Origin: Acidobacteriota bacterium | Lineage (GTDB): Bacteria; Acidobacteriota; Vicinamibacteria; Vicinamibacterales; UBA8438 | Assembly (NCBI GenBank): GCA_009861545.1 | Contig: VXME01000084.1 | Location: 1 to 50,884, forward strand | DNA: 50,884 bases | Direction of reading: 5' to 3' | Shown here: positions 1,276 to 43,095 of the stretch, piece after piece | Layout of the letters: every line of letters begins with the position of its first letter | Position numbering within the stretch: position 1 is the stretch's first letter | Program-made: the position numbers and the translations under genes | Notes under the pieces: generated by a model | The model's database searches: none | What the model saw: the letters and a program-made list of their open reading frames with translations, nothing else | Told to the model about the DNA's origin: nothing

Positions 1276-3483
1276 CTACTCCCCGTAGGCGAATGCCGCC
1301 TCGAGTCGCGCCGGCTCGGCGGAGCGCATCTTCGCCCAGAGGTCTCCCACCTGCTCGAGGCGCGGAACGATGGACCGGATCGTGAAGTCCTGCGGCCGGA
1401 GACCGGCCGCGACCCCCTCGTGCGCCTCCGTCCAGGCGAGCGGCGTCGACACGCCGGCGAACGGGCTGGCGCGGGCGCTGTAGGCGCAGGCCAGCGTCTT
1501 GCCGTAGATGTTCTGCAGGTAGTCGATGTAGACGGCGTCGGGCCGCCGCTGCCGGACCATGCGCTCGACGGTGGCCGCCGCCGGGTGGGCGTCGGCCACC
1601 ACCGTGGCGACGATCTGGCAGAAGATCATGCCCGCTTCGTAGGGTGTGCCGGGCGGGAGCGGAATGAAGATGTGGACGCCCTCGGAGCCGGAGGTCTTGG
1701 CGAAGCAGGGCACGCCGAGACGCTCCAGCTCGTCGTGGAGCCAGCAGGCGACATCGAGCACGCGGTCGAACGTTGCTTCCGGCATCGGGTCGAGGTCGAG
1801 GGCCACCTGGTCGGCAGACTCGAGATCGTCCAGCGTGGAGAACCACGGGTCCTGCGAGATGACGGCGAGTTGCGCCATGTAGAGCAGGGTCTGAAGCTGC
1901 CCGCCGACCAGGTACGGCACGACCGAGTCGGGCTTGGCGGGGCTCTCGCGGACGGTCGCCACGCGGAGGCCGTCGGGCAGCGGGTCCGGCGCGCGGTGCT
2001 GGTAGAACGACTTGCCGCCGACGCCGTTGGGAAACCGCTTCATGACGAGGGGCCGATCCGCGACCACCGGCAGCAGGTGCGGGGCCATGCGGAGCTGGAA
2101 GCGGAGCAGCTCGCCCTTGGTGATTCCCGGTTCGGGCCAGAAGACCTTGTGGAGGTTGCCGACGGGGACGCGCGCGCCGTCGTGGAGGACGAGGGTGCCG
2201 CGCCGGCGGTTGCGCTCCAGGTCCTCGAGTTGCGCCAGCAGGTCATCGACGCCCGGGTCCGGGTGCTCCGGTTCCGGTGCGGCCGCCCGGTGCTCCGGTC
2301 GTGCCGGGGCCGTCGCTCTCCCTGTCTGCGGTGAGGTGCGCGCTTCCTTCTCGACGCGGCCGGTCGGCCGTGTCGCGGCGCGTCGCGCGGGCGGATCGGC
2401 GGCGCCGCCCGGGGGCGGGCGCCGCGCCGGAAGCCGGACATCCGCCGGCCGCTTGTCTTCCCGCAGGCCGTGGTAGACGGGATGGCGCAGCACGCCGTCC
2501 GGCGTCCACTGGCTGAACCCCGTCTGCACGACGAGGACCGGCTCGACCCAGCGGCGCTTCTCGGACGGTTTCGGCTGTGTCAGCTCCACGAAAGGCGGCG
2601 CATCGGTCGCCAGCGGGGTGAGGAGGCCGGCGATGCGGTCGAGCTCGGCGTCGGTGAATCCGGTTCCGACCTGTCCCGCGAAGACGAGCGCCCCGGTCGC
2701 CGGTCGACCCTTGCCGGCGGCGTAGTAGCCGAGGAGGAGGGCGCCGAAGTGCGGGCGCGATCCGCGCGGCAGGGTCCAGCCGCCGACCACGAACTCCTCG
2801 GTGCGCGTGAACTTCACCTTCTGCCAACCGGAACCGCGGCTGCCGCTGGCGTAGCGCCCGTCGGGGCGCTTGACGATGATTCCCTCCCAGTCGCGCTTCA
2901 GGCCGCGATCCGCCAACGCCGCGCCGTTGCCGGTCGTGCTCTCGATCAGGCGTACCGGTTGCGAGCAATCCGGGCGCAGCAGGCGTTCCAGCCGCCGCCG
3001 GCGGTCGGTAAACGGGAGCGGCCGGAGATCCTCGTCCCCGTCGCGCAGCAGGTCGAAGACGACGAGCGCGGTCGCGACGCGGCATACCGCCACGCGCACG
3101 GCACCGCCCGTCGCGTGCAGCCGCCCCTGCAGGTGCTGAAACGGCAGCGCCGCGCCGTCGTCGCCGGTCGCCACGATCTCGCCGTCCAGCAGCACCGGAC
3201 GGCGCAGCCGGCGTCCGAGGGCGGCCAGCGGCTCGACGAGATCGGGAAACTGCGCGGTCTTGTCGCGGCCCAGACGTGTGTAGAGGCAGGGGGGCGCCGA
3301 GCCGTCCAGCGCCACCAGGGCCCGTATGCCGTCGTACTTCGGTTCGAAGACGAGCTCGGGCCGCGAGAGCAGACGCGCGTGAGCGCTCGGCGGGGCCGAT
3401 TCGGCCAGCATCGGCCGCACGTCGCGCGGGTCGCCGCGCCACGCCGTCGCCGCCTGCCGTCGCCGCACCTGACGCTTCGCCAT
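1276..3483 (-). CDS. ligD: Bifunctional NHEJ DNA ligase/polymerase LigD
   Basis: Repairs double-strand breaks with Ku by filling and sealing ends. The N-terminal half is an ATP-dependent ligase with the adenylation motif EPKYDGIRA near residue 49 (Lys is the AMP-accepting residue). A Pro/Arg-rich linker of about 70 residues follows, then a primase-type polymerase domain with DLDP metal ligands and TSGSEGVH. About 735 aa in LIG-POL order, and the 3'-phosphoesterase domain found in many LigD proteins is absent. I chose ATG 3483 because the only earlier ATG (3498) lies inside a TATGCT promoter hexamer. It is divergent from ku with a 75-base gap. Confidence 0.93.
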   Translation of the reverse strand: MAKRQVRRRQAATAWRGDPRDVRPMLAESAPPSAHARLLSRPELVFEPKYDGIRALVALDGSAPPCLYTRLGRDKTAQFPDLVEPLAALGRRLRRPVLLDGEIVATGDDGAALPFQHLQGRLHATGGAVRVAVCRVATALVVFDLLRDGDEDLRPLPFTDRRRRLERLLRPDCSQPVRLIESTTGNGAALADRGLKRDWEGIIVKRPDGRYASGSRGSGWQKVKFTRTEEFVVGGWTLPRGSRPHFGALLLGYYAAGKGRPATGALVFAGQVGTGFTDAELDRIAGLLTPLATDAPPFVELTQPKPSEKRRWVEPVLVVQTGFSQWTPDGVLRHPVYHGLREDKRPADVRLPARRPPPGGAADPPARRAATRPTGRVEKEARTSPQTGRATAPARPEHRAAAPEPEHPDPGVDDLLAQLEDLERNRRRGTLVLHDGARVPVGNLHKVFWPEPGITKGELLRFQLRMAPHLLPVVADRPLVMKRFPNGVGGKSFYQHRAPDPLPDGLRVATVRESPAKPDSVVPYLVGGQLQTLLYMAQLAVISQDPWFSTLDDLESADQVALDLDPMPEATFDRVLDVACWLHDELERLGVPCFAKTSGSEGVHIFIPLPPGTPYEAGMIFCQIVATVVADAHPAAATVERMVRQRRPDAVYIDYLQNIYGKTLACAYSARASPFAGVSTPLAWTEAHEGVAAGLRPQDFTIRSIVPRLEQVGDLWAKMRSAEPARLEAAFAYGE

Positions 3484-3493
3484 GGAAACTACC

Positions 3494-3532
3494 AGCATAC
3501 GGGAACCCCGGAGCGCGTCCTGCCGATATATT
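3494..3532. promoter_or_regulatory. Divergent ligD/ku promoter region
   Basis: Leftward, TATGCT at 3494-3499 sits 10 bases before the ligD start and implies an almost leaderless transcript. Rightward, TATATT at 3527-3532 is followed by AAGGAG at 3545-3550 and the ku ATG at 3559. Neither has a convincing -35 box. Confidence 0.45.
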
Positions 3533-3558
3533 CAGGGAAGGAACAAGGAGCACGAACG

Positions 3559-4446
3559 ATGGCCGCACGTCCAACCTGGAAGGGCCACCTGAAGGTGAGC
3601 CTGGTGACCGTCCCGATCCGGGTCTTTCCCGCGACCAACGCGACCGGCGTCATCCGGTTCAACCAGTTGCACGCCACCTGCCGGACGCGGATCCGCCAGA
3701 AGAAGTGGTGCGAGGAGTGCGACACCGAGGTGGACAAGTCGGAGATCGTCAAGGGGTTCGAGTTCGAGAAGGGGCGCTACGTCGTGATGGACGACGAGGA
3801 CCTCGCCAAGGCGAAGCCCGAGTCGACCCGGATCATCAATCTGCTCCGGTTCGCCGACGTCGAGTCGATCGATCCCATCTACGTCGAGCGGCCGTACTAC
3901 TTGGCGCCGGACGGGAAGGTCGCCGGCGAGGCGTTCGCGGTGCTCCGTGAAGCCCTCGAGGGCAAGGCGGGCATCGGCAAGCTGGCGCTGCTCGGTCGGG
4001 AGTACCTGGTCGCGGTGCAGCCGCGCGAGCGGGGGCTGATGATGTTCACGCTGCGCGCGGCGAGCGAGGTGCGCCGGATGTCGGCGATAGACGAGCTCGA
4101 GGACCTGCCGGAGACGGTCAACGAGGCCGAGGTGCAGCTTGCGCGGCAAGTGATTGGAACCTTCGCCGGCGATCTGGACCTGTCGGAGTTCACCGACGAG
4201 TACCAGGCGGAGTTGCGGCGCATCATCGACGCGAAGGTCGCCGGCGAAGAGGTGGTCGAGCAGGAAGCGGATTCTCCCGCCAAGGTCGTGAACCTGATGG
4301 AGGCGCTGCGCAAGAGCCTCGATCAGGTCAGCGCGTCGAAGAAGAAACCGGTGAAGGCGCCGGCGAAGCGGGCCGCGAAGGGCGCACGCAAACGAGCGTC
4401 CGGCGCGGCGGCGGCGGCCCCGGTTCGCAAGCGCAAGCGCGCATGA
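3559..4446 (+). CDS. ku: Ku homodimeric DNA end-binding protein
   Basis: Bacterial Ku of 295 aa that threads onto broken DNA ends and recruits LigD. It begins MAARPTWKGHLKVSLVTVPI, typical of the Ku beta-barrel N-terminus, and holds the CEECDTEV segment and the conserved YYL region near residues 113-116. The C-terminus is a Lys/Arg/Ala-rich tail after about residue 255, as in many bacterial Ku proteins that use it for DNA contact. The start is supported by AAGGAG 8 bases upstream. The open frame extends far upstream, but only as antisense of ligD. Confidence 0.95.
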   Translation: MAARPTWKGHLKVSLVTVPIRVFPATNATGVIRFNQLHATCRTRIRQKKWCEECDTEVDKSEIVKGFEFEKGRYVVMDDEDLAKAKPESTRIINLLRFADVESIDPIYVERPYYLAPDGKVAGEAFAVLREALEGKAGIGKLALLGREYLVAVQPRERGLMMFTLRAASEVRRMSAIDELEDLPETVNEAEVQLARQVIGTFAGDLDLSEFTDEYQAELRRIIDAKVAGEEVVEQEADSPAKVVNLMEALRKSLDQVSASKKKPVKAPAKRAAKGARKRASGAAAAAPVRKRKRA

Positions 4447-40823: not shown

Positions 40824-40850
40824 ACAGGCATAGCTTTACGGAGAGTGAAC

Positions 40851-41959
40851 TTGTACTCCTCGATACAAATCAACGGCTACCGCGGGCTCGATTCGTTCCG
40901 GATGGAGAAGCTCGGCCGCGTCAACCTGCTGGTGGGGATGAACAACTCGGGCAAGACTTCGATCCTGGAGTGCATCGAACTTCTCCGCTCGGCGGGTGAC
41001 CCGCATGTGCTGTCGGCCATTGCAGGCCGCCGAGGAGAGTGGGGACACGCGGATGATCCGGATGTGTGCGCGACTTTCGGACCTCGTCCGGACCCGCTCG
41101 ACGTGTCGCACCTTTTCGCGAACCACGAGTTGACCGGCAAGATACGTATATTGAGGCGGACCGTAGCGGAGACGTCGCAGCCGCCGGTTGGAACGACAGG
41201 GTAACGATACACGTCGAAGACCCGTCGGGTTCGGAGCCTGACGCGGAGGACGACATGACGGGCGATGACGACGAGCGACTTGCCCTTCACGTCAAGTGGA
41301 TGGACGCGCAGGACGATTTCAAGACTTTCGTCACGGATGAGGGACTCACGTGGGGACTTCGACGGCCGATGCGCCCGCGAAACGGCTCGAATCAGGCCGT
41401 TCAGTTCGTCCGGCCCAGCGGTCTGACGTCGGTGGATGTTGTTCGGACGTATAGCAAGTTCGTATTCACGAAAAAGGGTGAAGCAATCAAACAGGCGCTT
41501 CGTATCGTCGAGCCGGCAGTCGAGGACATTGCTCCGGTTGCAGATGACCGGAGGCCTTATCGCGACTCACCCGGTGGCGTCGTGCTCAAGCTTCGCGGAA
41601 TTGAGGGCCACGTCCCGATAGGGAGCATGGGCGACGGCATGTGGCGGATGCTCGGGTTGGCGCTCTCGATTTCGAACGCAAGCGGCGGAGTGCTGCTCGT
41701 CGACGAGATCGACACTGGTCTCCATTACACGGTGATGGAGGACATGTGGCGGATGGTCGGCGAACGGGCTGCTGCCCTGTCGGTTCAGGTGTTCGCCACG
41801 ACGCACAGCCGCGACTGCTACGAGAGCCTGGGGGCGGCCGTGGAATCCGACGTGGGCGACGTCACGATTCAGAGGATCGATCGGAGTCGTGGAAAAGCGG
41901 TCAGTTTCACGAACCGAGCCGTCGTGGCCGCCGGCGAGCGAAATGTCGAGGTCAGGTGA
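40851..41959 (+). pseudogene. AAA ATPase of the OLD/AAA_15 type, frameshifted
   Basis: About 370 aa in two frames. The first has 'IQINGYRGLDSFRMEKLGRV' and Walker A 'LLVGMNNSGKTSILE', and runs to a stop at 41202-41204. Homology-like text then continues in another frame ('EADRSGDVAAAGWNDRVTI'), with 'GSMGDGMWRMLGLALSI' and Walker B 'GGVLLVDEIDTGLHY' and a His-switch 'FATTHSRDCYESL'. The switch point is at 41150-41153, where one base appears missing (or two added). The start is TTG 40851 (GGAG 7 bases before) or GTG 40845. Base composition is less GC-rich than its neighbours. Programmed frameshift or sequencing error are alternatives. Confidence 0.8.
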
Positions 41960-42619
41960 GTGGCTTCCAGGAATCGCAGAGACTAACCCAGAAAGCTGCT
42001 GGTGGAGGGTGAGACAGACAAGCGTGTAATCCCGTATCTCATGGAAGCGAACGGCGTAATGTGGCCGGATCCGCCTGCCTCCCCCGTGTTCATCGAGCCG
42101 TACGGCAGCGTCGATGAGATTCTGAAGCCGGAAGTCATTTCGCTCGAGATAGGGGCATCTGGACTCGATGTCCTGGGCGTCGTGGTCGATGCGAACGGTG
42201 ACGCTGCGACACGGTGGGACCGTGTCAAGACGTGGTGTGGCAGTGAGTTTCCCGATCTGCCGGACCAGATTCCCGCCGCTGGTCTGGAGCTTGTCCACTC
42301 CGGCGGCCCGCGGTTCGGCGTCTGGATCATGCCCGACAACCGATTGACCGGGATGCTGGAGGATTTTCTGGTCGGATTGATTCCGGACGACTCTCGCCCC
42401 CTGTACGAACTCGCCACGAATTCTGTCGCCGAGGCGAAGCGCGACGGCGCGCCGTTCCGGGACGTCCACGTACGGAAGGCCGAGATTCACACGTGGCTCG
42501 CGTGGCAGGACCCGCCGGATCTGCGATTGCACGAAGCCGTCGAGCATGCCGTCCTGGATCCTGCCAGAGCCGAATCCCGGACGTTCGTGAACTGGTTCAG
42601 ACGCCTCTTTCGCGTGTAG
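41960..42619 (+). pseudogene. DUF3226 TOPRIM-like protein with an early stop codon
   Basis: GTG 41960 directly follows the ATPase stop. Codons read MASRNRRD, then TAA (41984-41986), then 'PRKLLVEGETDKRVIPYLME'. The rest is intact to 42619. The acidic pattern LVEGE and 'VVVDANGDAATRW' with later 'GVWIMPDNRLTGMLEDFL' marks DUF3226, a TOPRIM-type nuclease-like family. Without the stop the protein would be about 219 aa. Translation from GTG 42002 would lose the first beta strand and most of the region before the first catalytic Glu, so activity is doubtful. It pairs with the ATPase upstream. Confidence 0.78.
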
Positions 42620-42672: not shown

Positions 42673-43095
42673 GTAACGCAGCTTGACGGTTTCATCGGTT
42701 CTCTCCGTCCCCTCCTGGACGCGCAGCGGGCGCACGCGGCGTGGATCTTCGGATCGCACGCCCGCGGAACGGCCTCGGCCGAGAGTGATATCGACGTCAT
42801 CGTCGTGGCGTCGACGGACCGCCCCTTCGTGGACCGGTTCCGGGACTACCTGCCTGCGATCGCGAACGCCGACGGCGGTGTCGACCTGCTCGTCTACACG
42901 CCCGAGGAGTTCGCGCGCATGCAGGCGGAGGAGCGCCCGTTTCTCGTCGACGCCCTCGCCGACGCGAGACAAATCCATGGGAGACGCCCGAGCGGCATGC
43001 TCGGTCCCGGGACTGAGGGCGTCTGCCCGCCACCTACCGATACGCCGCGGCCTGGATCTCGTACAGCTCCGCGTAGTGCCCTGCAGCCGCCATGA
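42673..43095 (+). pseudogene. MNT-type minimal nucleotidyltransferase without a clear start
   Basis: The frame encodes 'LDGFIGSLRPLLDAQRAHAA' and then the signature 'IFGSHARGTASAESDIDVIVV' of MNT nucleotidyltransferases (GS motif plus Asp pair). No usable start codon precedes it in frame: a TAGAAT box (42661-42666) is followed 6 bases later by GTA (42673), one base from GTG. The first in-frame GTG is 42805, behind the active site. The tail after about residue 107 is not family-like and overlaps the convergent ABC gene by 62 bases. MNT proteins often act as antitoxins with HEPN toxins, but no HEPN gene is adjacent. Confidence 0.65.
42982..43024. terminator. Nested inverted repeats between convergent genes
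   Basis: An outer 8-bp stem (AGACGCCC 42982-42989 / GGGCGTCT 43017-43024) encloses a hairpin (GAGC 42990-42993 / GCTC 42999-43002) and a palindrome GTCCCGGGAC (43004-43013). This gives a three-way-junction shape just before the 3' end of the leftward ABC gene (43034). It may serve as a bidirectional terminator. Confidence 0.45.

Follow-up and report, generated by a model that had tools for sequence, protein, structure and literature searches.

A PDC-M38-type ATPase and DUF3226 gene pair with different breaks in three species of one acidobacterial genus

Organization of the locus

The window, the whole stretch of 50,884 nucleotides that was analysed, corresponds to contig C84 in a genome of 6.35 Mb and 174 contigs. 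The nearest named relatives are MAGs from Vicinamibacteria and other Acidobacteriota. The gene pair described here (Table 1) encodes an ATPase (AAA/OLD-type, AAA_15/AAA_21), which is spread over two reading frames (40845–41204 and 41066–41959), and a DUF3226 protein, whose GTG start codon is the triplet right behind the ATPase stop codon. The pair is followed by the remnants of a nucleotidyltransferase (MNT) gene and a HEPN gene. The GC content is 61.7% in the region 40851–42619 and 70.5% elsewhere in the window.

Table 1. Features of the locus, numbered from the first base of the window, and the related pairs in the same genome (G000).
Feature	Position	Strand	Notes
ATPase 5′ fragment (PDC-M38A-like)	40845–41204	+	Start at GTG 40845 or TTG 40851; Walker A GMNNSGKTS; correct frame to ~41146, then short missense tail (orthologs continuous in frame)
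ATPase frameshift lesion, TATA	41147–41150	+	One TA more than both same-genus orthologs (alignment and frames)
ATPase 3′ fragment, other frame	41150–41959	+	Signature GSMGDG; Walker B VLLVDEID; TTHSRDC; terminal ERNVEVR
DUF3226 GTG start and first 8 codons, then TAA as codon 9	41960–41986	+	Sense codon at this place in both sisters
DUF3226 remainder (PDC-M38B, TOPRIM-fold)	41987–42619	+	Open after the stop; first downstream start GTG 42002
Nucleotidyltransferase (MNT-like) remnant	42673–42998	+	Start codon lost (GTA); remaining coding part resembles intact sister genes
Deletion scar	42983–43036	+	Few HEPN codons, then flanking ABC-transporter gene (comparison with G027 and G025)
Diverged ATPase and DUF3226 pairs in G000	Contigs C5 (L002/L129) and C91 (L003/L130)

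Family assignment and predicted folds

A search with the PADLOC models finds PDC-M38A as the best of all models for the ATPase, with E values of 2.4e-48 for the 3′ fragment and 1.3e-20 for the 5′ fragment, and PDC-M38B for the DUF3226 gene (1.8e-53). The Pfam matches are DUF3226 (3.4e-55) for the second gene and AAA_21/AAA_15 for the ATPase. An intact relative (L034) is matched by the same two PADLOC models, with E values of 1.8e-70 and 3.8e-57, respectively.

Structure models were built from an intact relative rather than from the broken copy in the window. The DUF3226 model (pLDDT 96) has a TOPRIM fold. Its closest structural neighbor is PH0156 (PDB entry 2p62, VIA Z score 12.6), followed by the C-terminal region of OLD (6nk8, 11.1), retron Eco2 (8.8), GajA (8.0) and AriB of PARIS (7.9). 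The entry 2p62 was found by this fold search; searching the PDB by sequence with DUF3226 gave no match. The ATPase model is similar to GajA (Z score 17.9) and to PtuA of retron Ec78 (18.3), and the heads of SMC and Rad50 proteins are equally good matches. The structural case thus points to DUF3226 as the predicted TOPRIM-fold partner of an SMC-like ATPase.

The motifs expected of these folds are conserved. The TOPRIM motifs E11-G12, D74-A75-(D/N), E131 and K170 are invariant in DUF3226, as are Walker A and Walker B in the ATPase. The second position of the DxD/DxN motif is Asp in 60 of 72 homologs and Asn in the other 12, mostly in intact pairs; a D-to-N change at this position was considered as a further lesion and rejected for this reason. 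The profile and structure searches agree with the initial annotation of the locus, which had described an OLD-type ATPase directly followed by a TOPRIM-like protein, in the architecture of split OLD and PARIS-like systems.

Lesions in the ATPase and DUF3226 genes

An alignment with both same-genus orthologs, in the genomes referred to as G025 and G027, shows that the ATPase lesion consists of two extra bases, a TA repeat. The ATPase is unsplit, in a single frame, in G025 and G027 and also in intact pairs from other genera. The site of the frameshift is not a slippery heptamer. Programmed frameshifting was rejected on these two grounds.

Codon 9 of the DUF3226 gene is TAA in the window (41984–41986, in frame with GTG 41960), whereas both sisters have a sense codon here. 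An alternative start for this gene was examined and rejected, as the gene begins at this position in the sisters too, which lack the stop. Starting again at GTG 42002 would remove most of the first β-strand of the TOPRIM fold, just ahead of the invariant glutamate. A shortened DUF3226 protein could be produced from this downstream restart. The pair in the window is unable to yield either full-length protein, and it should therefore be inactive.

The lesions described in the initial annotation are partly confirmed by this comparison. The stop at codon 9 and the position of both lesions in lower-GC DNA are as reported there. The ATPase lesion and its net change of frame are also correct, but it was described as a single base at 41150–41153 and is two bases, in the TATA at 41147–41150. 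The module was delimited as 40851–42619, and the damage in fact runs beyond this end, into the MNT and HEPN genes.

The adjacent MNT and HEPN genes and the rest of the window

The nucleotidyltransferase has GTA (42673–42675) in the window in place of the GTG start codon found in both sisters. The HEPN gene behind it is deleted near 42996, and only a few of its codons remain. In G025, this gene is truncated, whereas G027 carries an intact copy together with a PIN gene at this place.

The whole 50 kb are collinear with one contig of G027 (C70). A tblastn comparison of 33 G027 genes with the collinear window finds no clear lesion outside the cassette, and the lesions in the cassette are therefore more than chance. 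Two stops flagged elsewhere as possible broken genes were rejected, as they are located upstream of the true start codons, and the other flagged positions appear to come from ORFs that were called too long in G027.

In the region 3207–3563 (~3.5 kb) of the window, the match to a G027 gene goes on in another frame and with lower identity, which may be a frameshift or an overlapping frame.

The same site in other genomes of the genus

The two other genomes of the genus that carry the pair, G025 and G027, have it at the same site, between an ankyrin gene and the nucleotidyltransferase. The pair has no match in the fourth genome (G026). The ATPase frame is uninterrupted in both G025 and G027, and DUF3226 is the only broken gene of the pair. 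In G027, a large internal segment of this gene is deleted. In G025, the gene breaks off at the end of a contig, where inverted ends of 14 bp and a duplication of ATT are found. This terminus is found at four places in G025 and is absent from the three other genomes of the genus, a distribution to be expected for an insertion sequence; the transposase was not recovered from the contig ends bearing the terminus. There is, therefore, one cassette at one site, with three different breaks in three species. Outside the genus, no clean empty site is found, as both the cassette and the ankyrin gene are missing beside the ABC gene of other genera.

The dN/dS ratio between the window and G025 is 0.18–0.21 (pairwise, NG86), which suggests that the loss is recent.

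The divergence of the ATPase gene is uneven along its length (window 40851–41956 compared with L126 of G025 and L127 of G027). The first 300 bases are about equally near to both, and the rest is far nearer to G025. This pattern may reflect recombination within the gene.

The breaks at this site have a bearing on the origin of the lesions. Sequencing or assembly errors, with an intact and normal pair in the true genome, are quite unlikely as the cause. The genome is a draft, and the broken pairs found elsewhere in the collection are all from MAGs, as such errors would predict. However, the two lesions are located in a stretch of 1.8 kb, and no clear lesion is seen in the remaining genes of the collinear window. 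One of them is a base substitution and the other a TA repeat, with no homopolymer slip. In addition, the window lacks the neighboring HEPN gene, and the start codon of the MNT gene is gone. Moreover, both sisters with the pair show other, larger breaks in the DUF3226 gene, and local sequencing error does not account for different breaks of one gene across three species. Poor sequence, which had initially been offered as one reading of the locus, is thus not supported as the main cause.

Recoding had been offered as another reading. The pair would then be expressed by a frameshift in the ATPase and readthrough of the DUF3226 stop, and would stay silent until it is needed. The codons downstream of the lesions are still conserved, with dN/dS near 0.2, but recent loss explains this value equally well. 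The orthologs have neither lesion, reading the ATPase in one frame and DUF3226 without the stop, and there is no slippery heptamer at the frameshift. Among the breaks in the sisters are an insertion junction and a deletion, and recoding cannot rescue these. This reading is highly improbable.

Homologous pairs in other bacteria

A single scan finds 80 loci with DUF3226, in Acidobacteriota, Cyanobacteria, Planctomycetota, Proteobacteria, Chloroflexota and other phyla, and 78 of them include the upstream DNA and can be evaluated. DUF3226 is directly preceded by the ATPase in all 78, and both genes are uninterrupted over the matched stretch in 72. The window's own genome has two more, diverged pairs (~35% identity), with both genes open (Table 1).

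The other broken pairs in this collection are all from MAGs, some apparently from one project. Five of them (L064, L066, L086, L089 and L091) are from MAGs of cyanobacteria and Kuenenia, three apparently from the same project (MO_167/MO_192), and their breaks may be decay or assembly error alike. A diverged pair in another genus (L014, on contig C231 of G007) is frameshifted in the ATPase and has an internal TGA in DUF3226.

The neighbors of the intact pairs are mixed. They include some Hma, DISARM, MADS and PD-T4-6 proteins, together with many housekeeping genes, and the pair at L034 adjoins M16 peptidase genes. A defence role for the family rests for this reason on the family assignment and on analogy. 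OLD-type ATPases can also serve in other roles, as with Cran1 (PMC12796447). Intact pairs in a plain housekeeping context had been expected to speak against a decayed or silenced defence module; such pairs do exist in part, as at L034, and the copy in the window is still broken.

Decay of the pair and a possible mechanism of its intact members

The stretch is very probably a defence cassette of the PDC-M38 type that was acquired by horizontal transfer and was inactivated recently. It is located beside a decaying MNT/HEPN toxin–antitoxin pair in an acidobacterial, Vicinamibacteria-like draft genome. A decayed defence system was among the original readings of the locus, and the different lesions at the same locus in the sister genomes support it. 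The locus would then be an example of a candidate defence pair that is dying, with three breaks in three species and intact pairs in neighboring genera. In the window, the ATPase and DUF3226 genes should be annotated as pseudogenes.

A tentative refinement of this decay is possible, if doubtful. In this split-OLD system, the TOPRIM effector would be costly and would have been destroyed repeatedly and independently at this one locus in the genus, with the ATPase outlasting it by chance or through another role. The readable ATPase next to a broken DUF3226 in G025 and G027 is consistent with this order of loss, and in the DUF3226-based search the breaks of a single partner are in DUF3226 (L038, L066 and L086), never in the ATPase alone. 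On the other hand, the cases are very few, several are MAGs with possible errors, and the ATPase in the window is broken too. Repeated loss of the effector with a lasting ATPase would, if true, suggest either that the effector is very costly or that the ATPase has a role of its own.

For the intact members of the family, a split-OLD mechanism, in which the ATPase senses infection and controls the TOPRIM nuclease, seems somewhat probable by analogy. The ABC/SMC-type ATPase would dimerise with ATP, hold or recruit the small TOPRIM protein, and sense infection. The TOPRIM protein, a putative metal-dependent nuclease, would then be released or activated and cut nucleic acid, which would stop the phage or the cell. 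The proposed trigger, substrate, nuclease activity and defence role are taken by analogy from GajA, OLD and AriA/AriB.

Comparison with known systems

The overall arrangement of the pair is similar to that of PARIS (AriA ATPase and AriB TOPRIM nuclease; proposed OLD class 4), where ATPase and TOPRIM are encoded by separate, adjacent genes and AriB cuts tRNA (PMC10568477, PMC12409363). The AriA models match the ATPase of L034 (6.7e-28), in addition to the structural similarity of AriB to the TOPRIM model. The partner here is DUF3226, however, with its best scores to PDC-M38, and with PADLOC it has no match to AriB or any other PARIS model, both in the window and in L034.

The ABC-type ATPase and TOPRIM folds are shared with OLD class 1 and with OLD class 2 (GajA of Gabija). 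In OLD class 1, the two domains are in one polypeptide, whereas they are on separate genes in all 78 evaluable loci here. In Gabija, a UvrD/PcrA-like helicase gene is located downstream; in comparison, MNT, HEPN or ABC transporter genes are found here, and UvrD is absent from the 25 commonest neighbor families of the relatives. The AbiLi models of AbiL also match the ATPase well (1.6e-37 for L034), but PDC-M38A scores better, and the DUF3226 partner has no match to an AbiL model. PDC-M38 therefore resembles PARIS and OLD in outline, and by the tests made it is a member of neither PARIS nor Gabija.

The PDCs are unvalidated candidate systems from the guilt-by-embedding screen of Payne and colleagues (PMC12988326, PMC11811056), and most of them still await validation (PMC12988326). 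Our literature search found no papers naming DUF3226 or PDC-M38, and no published phage assay of PDC-M38. This candidate system is widespread (Cyanobacteria, Acidobacteriota, Planctomycetota and others), and its intact pairs are good first targets for a phage assay. The adjacent genes in the window match both PDC-M38 models with the best scores, and both genes are broken, by the two-base frameshift and the stop at codon 9. The pair represents a new member of this known candidate family, though one that is broken, a remnant rather than a working member.
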